Source of the DNA: an uncultured Pelagibacteraceae bacterium
Lineage (GTDB): Bacteria; Pseudomonadota; Alphaproteobacteria; Pelagibacterales; Pelagibacteraceae
DNA length: 55,781 nucleotides
Reading direction: 5' to 3'
NCBI GenBank assembly: GCA_902545825.1
Contig: CACCHS010000003.1
Span: 1 to 55,781 of the forward strand
The first letter of the stretch is position 1; every line of letters begins with the position of its first letter. Position numbers and translations under genes: made by a program. The notes beneath the pieces are model-generated. The model saw nothing but the letters and a program-made list of their open reading frames with translations. It had not been told where the DNA came from and did not search any database. Positions 50,250-55,781 of the stretch are shown here, piece after piece.

Positions 50250-50639
50250 ATGAATAAAATACTAGTTGAAGTATCTGTGGGTGAGCTATTAGATAAATTA
50301 TCCATATTAGAAATTAAAAAAATTAGAATCAAAGATCCTAGTAAGCTTAATTTTATAAATGAAGAATATGACATTTTAAAGAATCAGTTTGAAAAGAATG
50401 TAAAAATTGACAATAAATTAAACGATCTTTTTAAGGAGCTGAAGGACATAAATAATAAATTGTGGGACATAGAAAATGAAAAAAGACTATGTGAAAAAAA
50501 TTCTGATTTTGGTGATGTTTTTATAAAGACTTCGAGAGATATACATTTTTTAAACGACAAAAGGGGAAATATTAAATTGGAAATCAATAATCATACTGGG
50601 TCAAAAATTAAGGAAATTAAAGAGTATACTGGATATTAA
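50250..50639 (+). CDS. DUF6165-like small protein
   Basis: KILVEVSVGELLDKLSILEIKKIRI; pairs with a glycan gene; family name from memory. Confidence 0.6.
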   Translation: MNKILVEVSVGELLDKLSILEIKKIRIKDPSKLNFINEEYDILKNQFEKNVKIDNKLNDLFKELKDINNKLWDIENEKRLCEKNSDFGDVFIKTSRDIHFLNDKRGNIKLEINNHTGSKIKEIKEYTGY

Positions 50640-51307
50640 AAACTATATTTTTTCTCTAAAAATTTAATTAAGTTGTGAATTAAAAAAGTCAAAAATAAAT
50701 ATATTCCACCAGCTACAATAAAAACTTCAATCGGCTTAAAGGTTGTTGAGATAATATATTTTGCTACACCGGTTAGATCCATTAGTGTAACTGTGCTAGC
50801 TAAAGATGTTCCTTTTAACATTAAAATTATTTCATTTCCATATGCAGGTAATGATTGTCTAATCGCAATTGGTATTTGAATTTTAAAAAAAATAATTTTT
50901 GATTGAATCCCTAAACTTTTACCTGCCTCTATTAAACCTGGTTTAATTGTCTCAAATGCAGATCGTAAAATTTCAGATGTATATGCCCCTGTGTTTAAAG
51001 AAAAAGCTATAATTGCACACCAATAAGGTTCTTTTAAAAATATCCATAAAAATGATGATCTTATAAATTCTAATTGTCCTAATCCGAAATAAATTATAAA
51101 TATTTGAACCAATAACGGTGTACCCCTAAAAAAATAAGAATATCCATAAGCAAATTTATTAATAATAGGATTTTTGTTGATTCTCATAATAGAAAACAAA
51201 ATTCCTAAAATTAAACCAACAACTAAAGAAACAGATAAAAGTTTCAAAGTTATTAGAGTTGCATTAAGTAACTTTGGGAAACTACTTATCATTAAATCAA
51301 AATCCAT
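50636..51307 (-). CDS. PAAT-family ABC transporter permease (HisM/OccM-like)
   Basis: YFFRGTPLLVQIFIIYFGLGQ, NTGAYTSEILRSAFETIKPGLIEAGKSLGI. Confidence 0.9.
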   Translation of the reverse strand: MDFDLMISSFPKLLNATLITLKLLSVSLVVGLILGILFSIMRINKNPIINKFAYGYSYFFRGTPLLVQIFIIYFGLGQLEFIRSSFLWIFLKEPYWCAIIAFSLNTGAYTSEILRSAFETIKPGLIEAGKSLGIQSKIIFFKIQIPIAIRQSLPAYGNEIILMLKGTSLASTVTLMDLTGVAKYIISTTFKPIEVFIVAGGIYLFLTFLIHNLIKFLEKKYSF

Positions 51308-51999
51308 TAATATCCTTTGCTATATTTAATTTCCAATCGGTTGATAAATTTCATGCTTAAGTAAGTTAATAGTAAGTATAAGACTGCGGCAAATGAATAG
51401 AAAAATAATGGATCTCTTGTAGATCCTGCAGCAATGTATGATTGTCTCATAATTTCAACTAGTCCTGTTACAGATATTAATGATGTATCTTTAAGTGTTA
51501 TTTGCCAAACATTACTTAAATTAGGGATAGCTAATCGTAACATTTGAGGCATGATTACTTTAAAAAAGTGAATTGGCTTCTTTAAACCTAAAACCTTTGA
51601 AGCTTCAAACTGACCTTTATCAATTGATTGAATAGCCCCTCTGAAAACTTCAGTTGAATATGCTCCAGAAATTATACCTATTGCAAATGATCCTGTGATA
51701 AATGCATTAATTTCTATATACTCATTGTAACCAAAAATAGATGCAACATACATCACTGCACCACTACCGCCAAAAAAGAAAAGATAAATTACTAATAATT
51801 CAGGAACACCTCTGATTACAGTTGTATAACAATTAGCAATAAGATTGAAAAATTTATTGTTTGATAACTTTAAAGGAGTAAAAATTAATGCAAAAAGAAA
51901 GCCAATAAACATTGCTGTTATTGAAACAGCAAGAGTCATCAAAGTAGCAATGAATAACTCATCACCCCAACCAGTTTTTCCAAATGCTAGAAGTTCCAT
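51307..51999 (-). CDS. PAAT-family ABC transporter permease (HisQ/OccQ-like)
   Basis: YTTVIRGVPELLVIYLFFFGG, GAYSTEVFRGAIQSIDKGQFEASKVLGL. Confidence 0.9.
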   Translation of the reverse strand: MELLAFGKTGWGDELFIATLMTLAVSITAMFIGFLFALIFTPLKLSNNKFFNLIANCYTTVIRGVPELLVIYLFFFGGSGAVMYVASIFGYNEYIEINAFITGSFAIGIISGAYSTEVFRGAIQSIDKGQFEASKVLGLKKPIHFFKVIMPQMLRLAIPNLSNVWQITLKDTSLISVTGLVEIMRQSYIAAGSTRDPLFFYSFAAVLYLLLTYLSMKFINRLEIKYSKGY

Positions 52000-52005
52000 A
52001 AAGAC

Positions 52006-52030
52006 TGGCGACTATATATCATAGTCGCCA
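52006..52030 (-). other. Intercistronic stem-loop between binding-protein and permease genes
   Basis: TGGCGACTAT-ATATC-ATAGTCGCCA: 10-bp perfect stem, 5-nt loop; little T-run before the permease ATG, so more like an mRNA-stabilising hairpin than a strong terminator. Confidence 0.75.
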
Positions 52031-52043
52031 AATCTAAAATTAA

Positions 52044-52871
52044 TTACATAGATGCGTCGAAGCCAAACCATTTAGTAGCAATTCTACTAATGTCTCCATT
52101 TTTTCTCGCTTTATCTATGGCTTTGTTAAATGCTTTTAAAAGCTCAGTGTCATCTTTTCTTATTCCAACACCTACGCCATTTCCAAATGCACCACCAGAA
52201 AATGTTGGTCCAACAAGTACCACTGGTTTACCTGATTTTTCTGCATAGTCTGTGAATGCTACTGCTGCAGCTAATGCAACATCACATCGACCAGAAGTTA
52301 AATCTAAGTTTACTTCATCTTGTGTCTTATATGTTCTTACGTTTATTTTACCTACATCACCAGACTCTAAAAAGTTTTGGTGAATTGTAGCAGTTTGTGT
52401 ACAGACTGTTTTTCCAGCTAATGCAGAAGTCAAAGTTTTAAGATCTTTTTTTACTGCACCTGTTTTTTTTGTAAGATTGATTCCTTCAGAAGTACTTATT
52501 CCTTCAAGATCTGAGCCTTTCATTACAGCAAGTGAAGCTACTTCATCAGCATAGCCTTGTGAAAAACTAATTGCTTTTTGTCTTTCTGCAGTTATAGACA
52601 TTCCAGCCATTATTGCATCGAATTTTCTCATTATAAGAGCTGGTATCATTCCATCCCAGTCCTGCTCAACGATTTCACATTGTTGTCCAATGTATCTACA
52701 AAGTGTCCAAGCTAATTCTACTTCAAAACCAATTAATTTGCCTGAGGCATCTTTTGAATTCCATGGTGGATATGCACCTTCTGTTCCTATTCTTATTTTA
52801 TCAGCATTGGCAGATATTGTTAAAAATAGACTTATCAATAACCCTAAGCTGAATTTTTTAATTATACTCAT
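52044..52871 (-). CDS. PAAT-family amino acid/opine-type periplasmic binding protein
   Basis: Signal peptide, KIRIGTEGAYPPWNSKDASGKLIGFEVELAWTLC, DWDGMIPALIMRKFDAIMAGMSIT. Confidence 0.9.
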   Translation of the reverse strand: MSIIKKFSLGLLISLFLTISANADKIRIGTEGAYPPWNSKDASGKLIGFEVELAWTLCRYIGQQCEIVEQDWDGMIPALIMRKFDAIMAGMSITAERQKAISFSQGYADEVASLAVMKGSDLEGISTSEGINLTKKTGAVKKDLKTLTSALAGKTVCTQTATIHQNFLESGDVGKINVRTYKTQDEVNLDLTSGRCDVALAAAVAFTDYAEKSGKPVVLVGPTFSGGAFGNGVGVGIRKDDTELLKAFNKAIDKARKNGDISRIATKWFGFDASM

Positions 52872-52928: not shown

Positions 52929-53972
52929 TTATTTATTTATTGAAGATGCAAAATTCCAAGAACAATCAAAGCTTGGTATATAGATTCTATCTAAGGATGT
53001 ATTACCAAAGCTTTTTTGAAACAAATTTAACCATTTTTCTACTTGCTTAGGTTTTTTATCTTGGCTGCCAACTTGTGCTGTAATTGTTCCATCAGATTTT
53101 AAAATTCTTTTTAGAGATTTTATGTTTTTTGCTGCAAGGTCTATACAATATTGATCATCATTCAAATCAACAAAGATTTTATCATACTTATTGTCCTCGA
53201 CTTTTTTAATACTCTCAAAAGCGTCACCCCAAACACACTTAACAGAATTTTTAGTTGTGGCTTTTTCCCCAATTTTAGATAAATGTTTTTCACAAACTTT
53301 TACAACCTCTGGATCAAGCTCATACCAATCAATTAAGTTAAAACCTTTTGAAATTAATTCTCTTGCTACACCACCATCTCCACCACCAATAATTGCTGAT
53401 TTATCTTTGTTTGGATTAAGTTTAATACCAGAATTTACGAAAGTTGAACTATATAGGTGCTCGTCTTTTTCAGCCACTTGTAATTCATTGTCAATAAACA
53501 AGGATTTACCAAACTGTTCTAATTCTAAGATTTCAATATGTTGTCCTACTTTTGAGGTAAAATCCTCTAATACATTTTTAACCATATAATATTTTCTTAA
53601 TCCTGGTGAACTATAAATATCATCATAATAACTTACAGTATCTCTATTAAACTCTTTTTTTACGATACGTTTATGTTTAATTTCTTTTTTTAATATATCT
53701 AATGCAACGATTGGATTTACTTTTCCACAAGTAAAAAAATCGAAGCTAATTATCCCTTTTTCTGGAAAAGTATGGAAACTAATATGACTTTCCGCAAGTA
53801 ATGCTACTAAGGTAAATCCTTGTGGTTCAAATTTAAATTTTGAAATTTCTAAAACGGTTACCTTTGCTTTTTTTGCAATTTTATAAACAAGTTTTTCAAA
53901 AAATTTTGGTTCATACTCTTTTTCAGTACCAATTATATCAAGAGTTATATGCTCACCTACTTTTTTACTCAT
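52929..53972 (-). CDS. speD-speE: Fused S-adenosylmethionine decarboxylase (SpeD)-spermidine synthase-like (SpeE) protein
   Basis: N-terminal SpeD motif LLAESHISFHTFPEKGIISFDFFTCG (processing Ser, His, Cys); C-terminal spermidine synthase domain (FGKSLFIDNELQVAEKDEHLYSS, AIIGGGDGGVARELI); one continuous 347-aa ORF. Confidence 0.92.
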   Translation of the reverse strand: MSKKVGEHITLDIIGTEKEYEPKFFEKLVYKIAKKAKVTVLEISKFKFEPQGFTLVALLAESHISFHTFPEKGIISFDFFTCGKVNPIVALDILKKEIKHKRIVKKEFNRDTVSYYDDIYSSPGLRKYYMVKNVLEDFTSKVGQHIEILELEQFGKSLFIDNELQVAEKDEHLYSSTFVNSGIKLNPNKDKSAIIGGGDGGVARELISKGFNLIDWYELDPEVVKVCEKHLSKIGEKATTKNSVKCVWGDAFESIKKVEDNKYDKIFVDLNDDQYCIDLAAKNIKSLKRILKSDGTITAQVGSQDKKPKQVEKWLNLFQKSFGNTSLDRIYIPSFDCSWNFASSINK

Positions 53973-53983
53973 AATAAAACACT

Positions 53984-54643
53984 TTAATTTTTTTTATAAT
54001 TTTTAGTCTTTTCTAAAATTTTATTCATTTCTTCAAATGAAAGAATCTTAGGATTACCTAACTTTATTGTATTTATATATTGATGACAAATATTTTCTAT
54101 TTCTTCTGCCAGTTCAAATGCTTGATCCAAATTTTTTCCAAATGCAACCTGGCCGTGGTTTGACATTAAACATCCTTTTCTTTCATTCAAAGCTTGAATT
54201 ATATTTTTTGAGAGTTGCTTAGTACCAAAAGTTGCATAATCTGCACACTTAATGTCGTTACCCCCAGCCAAAGCAACCATATAATGAAATGCAGGAATAT
54301 TTTTTCCATGTGCAGATACTGCAGTAGCAAAAGGAGAGTGAGCGTGTACTATCGCTATAGCATCTGGTTTGTTTATATAAATATCTTGATGAAATTTCCA
54401 CTCTGAGGATGGGTTTAATCCAAGATCTATAATTTTTTGTTCATTTTTCTTTTCATCCATCTCAAGAAAAACAATTTTGTCTTCCTGTAAATCATTATAT
54501 TTTATACCTGAAGGTGTAATGAAGAAACCTTCTTTGCCACTTAAATCTGTTCTAACGGAAACATTTCCTGATCTTAAAGGTGAGAGGTTGGTATCATTTA
54601 GTTTTTTTGCATATTTAATAACCTCTAGTTTTAAATTAGTCAT
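53984..54643 (-). CDS. Class II aldolase/adducin family protein (FucA-like; possible methylthioribulose-1-P aldolase)
   Basis: SPLRSGNVSVR, FITPSGIKY, SSEWKFHQDIY, AIVHAHSPFATAVS, CADYATFGTKQLS, CLMSNHGQVAFG. Confidence 0.85.
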   Translation of the reverse strand: MTNLKLEVIKYAKKLNDTNLSPLRSGNVSVRTDLSGKEGFFITPSGIKYNDLQEDKIVFLEMDEKKNEQKIIDLGLNPSSEWKFHQDIYINKPDAIAIVHAHSPFATAVSAHGKNIPAFHYMVALAGGNDIKCADYATFGTKQLSKNIIQALNERKGCLMSNHGQVAFGKNLDQAFELAEEIENICHQYINTIKLGNPKILSFEEMNKILEKTKNYKKN

Positions 54644-54846
54644 TATTTTTTAAGTTTTTTATTTATCTCATTTTCACAAAAAATTTTGATATCATTAATA
54701 TTTTTATCTTTATTAATTTTTTTTTGCGCAATAATGCAAGCTTTCATTGACTTCTCAAGACTAAATGAGCCGTATTCTATTCTTGAAACGTAAAGCATCA
54801 AGAATGCAATTATTAAAAATAATATAAAATATAAATTTTTTTTCAT
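54643..54846 (-). CDS. Hypothetical small membrane-anchored protein
   Basis: 67 aa; N-terminal TM (LYFILFLIIAFLMLYV); overlaps mtnA and abuts the aldolase gene. Confidence 0.6.
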   Translation of the reverse strand: MKKNLYFILFLIIAFLMLYVSRIEYGSFSLEKSMKACIIAQKKINKDKNINDIKIFCENEINKKLKK

Positions 54847-55781
54847 TTAAATAATTTTTTTAAACCATCTTGAGATGCTTCACAAATTCCTCTTTCTGTA
54901 ATTAAACTTGTTACATATTTCGCGGGGGTTATATCAAAAGCAATATTCATTGCTTTACTTTTTTTTGGATAAATTTGTATTTTTTTAATATTTCCATCTT
55001 TATCTATCCCATCTATAAATGATAACTCATTTGAATTTCTCTCTTCTATAGGAATATCTTTGAAATTTTTAATATTCCAATCAATAGTTGAGCTTGGAAG
55101 TGCTACATAGAAAGGAACATTGTTATCATATGCTGCGAGGGCTTTTAAATAAGTTCCAACTTTATTGCATACATCCCCGTTTGCTAAGGTTCTATCTGTT
55201 CCAACTATACACATATCAACTTCACCCCTTTGCATTAAGATCCCACCTGTATTATCTGCAATGATTGTATTCTTAATGCCCTCCTCATTTAACTCATAAG
55301 AGGTAAGATTTGCACCTTGATTTCTTGGTCTTGTTTCGTCAGCCCAAACGTGAACTGGAATACCTTTTTTGTGAGCATGATAAATTGGTGAAGTCGCTGT
55401 ACCCCAATTTATGGTCGCTAACCACCCAGCATTACAATGAGTTAAAATATTGACCGTATTCTTTTTTTTATTATAAATTTCCTCAATTATTTTCAGACCA
55501 GTTAATCCAATATTTTTGCAAAAATTTATGTCTTCTTCGCAAATTTCATTTGCTTCACTCTTAGCTATTTTCAAAATCTTATCACTATTGACACCTGACA
55601 ATTTACTCATCATTCTTTCAACTGCCCATTTTAAATTAATTGCAGTAGGTCTTGAACTAATTAAATTTTCTGCAGATTTGTTTAAAAATGATTGATCATT
55701 ATTTTCAAGAATTGCTAAGACTAATCCATAAGCTGCTGTAGCTCCTATTAATGGAGCTCCTCTTACCTCCATTACTTTAAT
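54843..55781 (-). CDS. mtnA: S-methyl-5-thioribose-1-phosphate isomerase, partial (N-terminus beyond window)
   Basis: IKVMEVRGAPLIGATAAYGL (frame open to window edge), HCNAGWLATINWGTATSPIY, DETRPRNQGANLTSYEL, IVGTDRTLANGDVCNKVGTY. Confidence 0.94.
   Translation of the reverse strand: MKVMEVRGAPLIGATAAYGLVLAILENNDQSFLNKSAENLISSRPTAINLKWAVERMMSKLSGVNSDKILKIAKSEANEICEEDINFCKNIGLTGLKIIEEIYNKKKNTVNILTHCNAGWLATINWGTATSPIYHAHKKGIPVHVWADETRPRNQGANLTSYELNEEGIKNTIIADNTGGILMQRGEVDMCIVGTDRTLANGDVCNKVGTYLKALAAYDNNVPFYVALPSSTIDWNIKNFKDIPIEERNSNELSFIDGIDKDGNIKKIQIYPKKSKAMNIAFDITPAKYVTSLITERGICEASQDGLKKLFK

Follow-up and report, generated by a model that had tools for sequence, protein, structure and literature searches.

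A SpeD-SpeE fusion gene of Pelagibacteraceae and its conserved gene neighbourhood

Can a single polypeptide of 347 amino acids from an uncultured Pelagibacteraceae bacterium both decarboxylate AdoMet and transfer the resulting aminopropyl group, and what do the genes around it suggest about the fate of its by-product? The window, meaning the whole 55,781-nucleotide stretch of DNA that was analysed, is contig C3, one of 43 contigs in an assembly that totals 864,603 bases and is 71% complete. A preliminary description had proposed that one open reading frame in this window, here called speDE, fuses AdoMet decarboxylase (SpeD) to spermidine synthase (SpeE), and the fusion is borne out by the ORF call and by Pfam matches that fall in one frame. 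We find that the fusion is real but not new: speDE adds one more sequence to a SAR11 fusion that has been characterised before. We put the probability that it encodes the AdoMet decarboxylase-aminopropyltransferase fusion of SAR11 (Pelagibacteraceae) at about 0.95. Domains, conserved residues, the single conserved frame, selection and synteny were computed here, whereas both activities and the product range come from others' data on close orthologues.

One frame, two enzymes

The gene and its parts, all on the minus strand, are as follows.

52929 to 53972, minus strand: speDE fusion ORF, 347 aa, with ATG at 53972 and stop codon at 52929-52931; a single frame in relatives as well
53643 to 53951, minus strand: class 1b AdoMet decarboxylase domain, residues 8-110 (PF02675, AdoMet_dc, E 7e-27)
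53787 to 53789, minus strand: Ser62 codon; Ser62 is where the chain is predicted to cleave itself and the pyruvoyl group to form, and it aligns to S63 of the Thermotoga maritima enzyme
53469 to 53615, minus strand: aminopropyltransferase N-terminal (tetramerisation) domain, residues 120-168 (PF17284, Spermine_synt_N, E 2.9e-7)
52956 to 53462, minus strand: aminopropyltransferase catalytic domain, residues 171-339, with GGGDGG at 196-201 (PF01564, Spermine_synth, E 6.1e-22)
53154 to 53168, minus strand: DSSDP-equivalent loop D269-L-N-D272-D273, from alignments with enzymes of solved structure; both Asp retained, Pro replaced by Asp

The 347 codons contain no internal stop, all three Pfam domains score above cut-off, and the motifs noted earlier (AESHISFHTFPEKG, FFTCG and GGGDGG) are all present. 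The decarboxylase half passes the curated cut-offs for class 1b SpeD (PF02675, 94.3 against 25; TIGR03330, 96.5 against 75.65). The other half has the attributes of a SpeE-type enzyme, namely an N-terminal beta domain followed by a Rossmann domain, a GGG(D/E)G(G/A) motif, the D-x-x-D carboxylates and a matching fold, but it falls short of the spermidine synthase equivalog models (TIGR00417, speE, 96.0 against 249.55; NF002010, 121.7 against 260) and of the curated cut-off of PRK00811. We therefore do not call it a plain spermidine synthase; it is a divergent transferase, in keeping with the wider product range of its orthologues.

The fusion is widespread in the order, with speDE matches in 250 of 297 genomes, most of those listed being full length. 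Within the genus, a first search of relatives recovered it at full length in about 45 genomes, none with an inner stop, and in two closed genomes of the genus identity to the window protein is 75 and 77%, the latter value coming from a genome of 1,456,888 bases (G125). All eight genera of Pelagibacteraceae checked, including that of the window, carry it at full length, as a single polypeptide with the same domain order throughout the family, and identity among the aligned family members spans 60-99%. A scan of named genome contigs kept 80 loci, all from Pelagibacteraceae or Pelagibacterales, with best matches up to 99% identical; one of these contigs, from Ca. Pelagibacter ubique SCGC AAA795-M22, has a match at 90% identity. 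The window is thereby placed in SAR11. Both the SpeD and the SpeE parts are under strong purifying selection: dN/dS is low for each half against five relatives, with similar ratios in the two parts, and in the comparison with the copy at locus L034 dN is 0.016 and dS 1.1.

In its own genome speDE is the sole AdoMet_dc match and the sole Spermine_synth match. Congeneric genomes that lack a speDE match, some of them more than 90% complete, yielded no other AdoMet_dc match either, and these cases reflect either assembly gaps or true loss. In one assembly (G060:C9 12359-13388) speDE is split into two overlapping frames covering residues 4-211 and 205-346, which is probably a frameshift in that assembly. 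The fusion was absent from the genomes listed for the other family of the order (f2), in which two genera are without it. One genus of that family (g3) has instead a stand-alone SpeD-like gene (G074:C3 141975-142289; L155:5940-6320), without a convincing aminopropyltransferase, and this gene is a candidate for a neofunctionalised decarboxylase of the arginine/ornithine type. That speDE might be carried by a phage was also considered and rejected, as the best phage matches are to separate SpeD or SpeE proteins of cyanophages and other phages, none covering 80% of the query.

Active-site residues and predicted processing

The preliminary description had called for alignment of both halves to characterised enzymes, and the residues required of SpeD proved to be retained. 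S62, H67 and C82 align with S63, H68 and C83 of the T. maritima AdoMet decarboxylase, respectively its pyruvoyl-forming Ser, processing His and catalytic Cys, which are essential in that enzyme (PMC10407285), and they are invariant in 17 family members; loss of catalytic residues is thereby ruled out. Two other T. maritima positions differ, with Ser55 corresponding to T54 and Trp70 to F69, and the Aquifex 2iii protein likewise has Thr at the former site. Because the processing residues are intact, the protein is expected to yield a beta chain of 61 aa and a pyruvoyl-bearing alpha chain of 286 aa, the latter carrying the transferase, much as had been anticipated from the sequence.

The claim that the transferase half lacks a DSSDP-type loop is not borne out in that form and is in part a misreading. 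When aligned with solved spermidine and thermospermine synthases (1iy9 from B. subtilis, in which the second carboxylate position is Glu, 3bwb from T. cruzi, 8iyi from K. lactis, 6bq2 from Medicago, and 7xif), the VDLNDDQ segment keeps D269 and D272 on both carboxylate positions of D-x-x-D, and what has changed is the Pro, which is replaced by Asp. This D273 is invariant in the 17 aligned family members and is a genuine family peculiarity. D199, E218, D250, D269, D272 and Q300 are invariant in the same set. Spermine synthases are recognised by an Asp in motif 2, a Gly two residues on and a Glu in motif 3 (PMC11107197), and speDE has this published pattern, with D199-G200-G201 in motif 2 and E218 in motif 3. 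The accompanying suggestion that amine substrate or product may differ was right in outcome, given that the characterised SAR11 orthologues produce not only spermidine but also spermine and thermospermine (PMC11107197).

An AlphaFold model built from the 17 family members has a mean pLDDT of 83 and shows both domains well formed, with a weak linker between them at approximately residues 110-125. Many spermidine synthases superpose on the transferase half of the model, with an rmsd of 2-3 A over about 240 columns. Human spermine synthase is the only full-length structural match among the best hits, but the two superpose loosely (rmsd about 8 A), so how the domains are placed relative to each other is not reliably predicted.

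Taken together with the orthologue data, these features suggest how the window protein would work. The class 1b domain would cleave itself before Ser62, giving a 61-residue beta chain and a pyruvoyl-capped 286-residue alpha chain that includes the whole aminopropyltransferase. The N-terminal domain would then decarboxylate AdoMet, and the C-terminal domain would transfer the aminopropyl group to putrescine to form spermidine and, further, spermine and thermospermine, with release of methylthioadenosine (MTA). The MTA would most likely be disposed of by products of the upstream mtnP, mtnA and aldolase genes.

Neighbouring genes and the fate of methylthioadenosine

The flanking genes in the window are co-directional with speDE.

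53984 to 54643, minus strand: FucA/Ald2-like class II aldolase, directly upstream of speDE across an 11-base gap (profile matches, synteny)
54843 to 55781, minus strand: mtnA, methylthioribose-1-phosphate isomerase, its 5' end cut by the contig end (NF004326, 404 bits; TIGR00512, 372 bits)
52044 to 52871, minus strand: downstream, co-directional substrate-binding protein of a basic-amino-acid-type ABC transporter (TIGR01096, 236 bits, just under cut-off)
50636 to 51999, minus strand: two ArtQ/ArtM-like ABC permeases, co-directional with the binding protein (profile matches, synteny)

Beyond mtnA, relatives carry mtnP, so that the usual order is apt (on the opposite strand), mtnP, mtnA, aldolase and speDE, often followed by the ABC binding protein and two permeases; a relative with the mtnP-mtnA-aldolase-speDE cluster is seen at L032:2194-4986. 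Sixty-one loci have full flanks; of these, 57 contain mtnA, 55 mtnP, 54 the aldolase and 49 the transporter genes. The transporter trio is thus missing from roughly one relative in five, and no ATPase gene was observed next to the binding protein and permeases (50636-52871). Some lineages lack parts of the cluster, with G012 and G120 retaining apt alone upstream of speDE.

When no aldolase gene separates mtnA from speDE, the gap is usually filled by a PRK08324-type bifunctional aldolase/short-chain dehydrogenase gene on the opposite strand. This gene lies divergently beside speDE at L150:7070-9109 and L148:4296-6329, and also at L079, L081, L082, L084, L088, L090, L100 and L101, the small aldolase being absent in several of these cases. 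Possibly, the PRK08324-type enzyme replaces the small aldolase in some lineages.

One MTA is released per aminopropyl product, and the simplest reading of the cluster is hence phosphorolysis by MtnP, isomerisation by MtnA and an aldolase step that splits the product into DHAP and methylthioacetaldehyde, as in the DHAP shunt that has been described in other bacteria (PMC10986504, PMC12632272). The aldolase probably cleaves methylthioribulose-1-phosphate, a substrate suggested by its context. Reading this neighbour as a methylthioribulose dehydratase was rejected, as TIGR03328 (mtnB) scores far under its cut-off, and ARD (mtnD) was not found above cut-off in ten genomes. As judged from gene content, the conserved cluster would imply that MTA is disposed of by a DHAP-shunt-like route and not by oxygen-dependent methionine salvage. 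The neighbourhood is less described than the fusion, which is itself established, and a limited literature search found no paper describing a speDE-linked MTA-salvage cluster in SAR11. The cluster, present in most relatives examined, offers a testable route from MTA to DHAP and a volatile-sulfur precursor in these bacteria.

The genome also contains genes that might supply the amine substrates. On contig C8, a PF02784-family decarboxylase, a deoxyhypusine-synthase homologue (dys2, G000:C8 3624-4667) and agmatinase (speB) stand in a row (G000:C8 2744-5888; L152). The decarboxylase is a homologue of PLP arginine decarboxylase, and a SAR11 homologue acts on arginine (PMC9992855). In all 10 Pelagibacteraceae genomes tested, dys2 scores above cut-off for caldomycin (agmatine-coupling) synthase, an enzyme that joins two agmatines into a product from which a ureohydrolase then yields homospermidine (PMC10981699). 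By this family assignment dys2 is a predicted caldomycin synthase, and, if true, the assignment would rename a gene now taken for homospermidine or deoxyhypusine synthase. It is conceivable that all these genes form one streamlined SAR11 module, in which arginine decarboxylase, dys2 and agmatinase would supply homospermidine and putrescine, SpeDE would aminopropylate them, and the mtnP-mtnA-aldolase genes would remove MTA by DHAP-shunt-like cleavage rather than oxygen-dependent methionine salvage, with the bifunctional aldolase/dehydrogenase substituting in some lineages. We hold this larger scheme tentatively, at slightly under even odds.

Other readings of the locus deserve consideration. 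Because the contig comes from an incomplete assembly of 43 contigs, an assembly or sequencing error could in principle have removed a stop between two adjacent genes. This reading is refuted by the uninterrupted frame in independent assemblies from at least eight genera, among them five single-contig closed genomes with 99-100% completeness, and the full-length, stop-free copies in the congeneric genomes rule it out as well; we consider it scarcely credible. Slightly less improbable, though still very unlikely, is that the decarboxylase half has become an arginine/ornithine decarboxylase, so that the fusion would not be an AdoMet decarboxylase. Among class 1b SpeD homologues the substrate has changed several times, one case being pelagiphage HTVC201P (PMC10407285, PMC9992855), and F69 in place of the T. 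maritima Trp could be taken to favour such a switch here. However, this domain is the only AdoMet_dc match in its genome and is still fused to its obligate partner, its TIGR03330 score (96.5) is above the cut-off of 75.65, and P50 and P70 are invariant across the 17 speDE family members, in keeping with the diagnostic Pro that bona fide AdoMet decarboxylases retain (PMC10407285). Moreover, the orthologues from HTCC1062 and HTCC7211 restore spermidine in a speD mutant (PMC11107197).

The remaining alternative concerns the direction of the reaction rather than the identity of the enzyme. From culture feeding data it has been proposed that SAR11 SpeE acts in reverse (PMC8437039), and in the cell the enzyme might then work mainly backwards, or on other triamines, degrading spermidine and norspermidine for nitrogen. 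However, no aminopropyltransferase is known to be reversible elsewhere, and the HTCC1062 data are unclear (both PMC8437039). Two features favour net synthesis, namely fusion to an active AdoMet decarboxylase and the presence of MTA salvage genes upstream. We regard degradation as the main role as unlikely, and favour the biosynthetic AdoMet decarboxylase-aminopropyltransferase fusion.

Comparison with known fusions and relatives

Doubt about novelty, voiced in the preliminary description, was justified. PMC8437039 credits the fusion event to Green et al. 2011, and SAR11 fusions were tested again in 2024, when Li et al. expressed those of Ca. Pelagibacter ubique HTCC1062 (WP_011282223) and Ca. 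Pelagibacter sp. HTCC7211 (WP_008544956) (PMC11107197). These yield spermidine in an E. coli speD mutant, so their N-terminal decarboxylase is active; in a speE mutant they give spermine and thermospermine, and from diaminopropane they form norspermidine (PMC11107197). They resemble the window protein in genus-level lineage, in having a class 1b AdoMet decarboxylase followed by an aminopropyltransferase, and in being encoded by a single gene; they differ from it in sequence divergence alone, with no functional difference indicated. Membership of the conserved protein family and the shared genus argue that the window protein is orthologous to them.

Other bacterial fusions of AdoMet decarboxylase with spermidine or spermine synthase (Green et al. 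2011, cited by PMC8437039; PMC12803844) have the same architecture, although those of PMC12803844, from delta-proteobacteria and Krumholzibacteria, belong to different phyla from SAR11. The two tested there have an active decarboxylase and make mainly spermine, whereas the SAR11 orthologues form thermospermine as well as spermine. The T. maritima AdoMet decarboxylase (PDB 1tlu/1tmi) shares the class 1b fold with the window protein but is a stand-alone enzyme. Human spermine synthase (PDB 3c6k) has the same two-domain layout, with an AdoMet decarboxylase-like domain before the transferase, but this domain is structural, having lost decarboxylase activity, and in sequence the human enzyme resembles the window protein weakly (residues 129-234, E 1.2e-8). 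Animal spermine synthase has been argued to descend from a bacterial fusion of this kind (PMC12803844).
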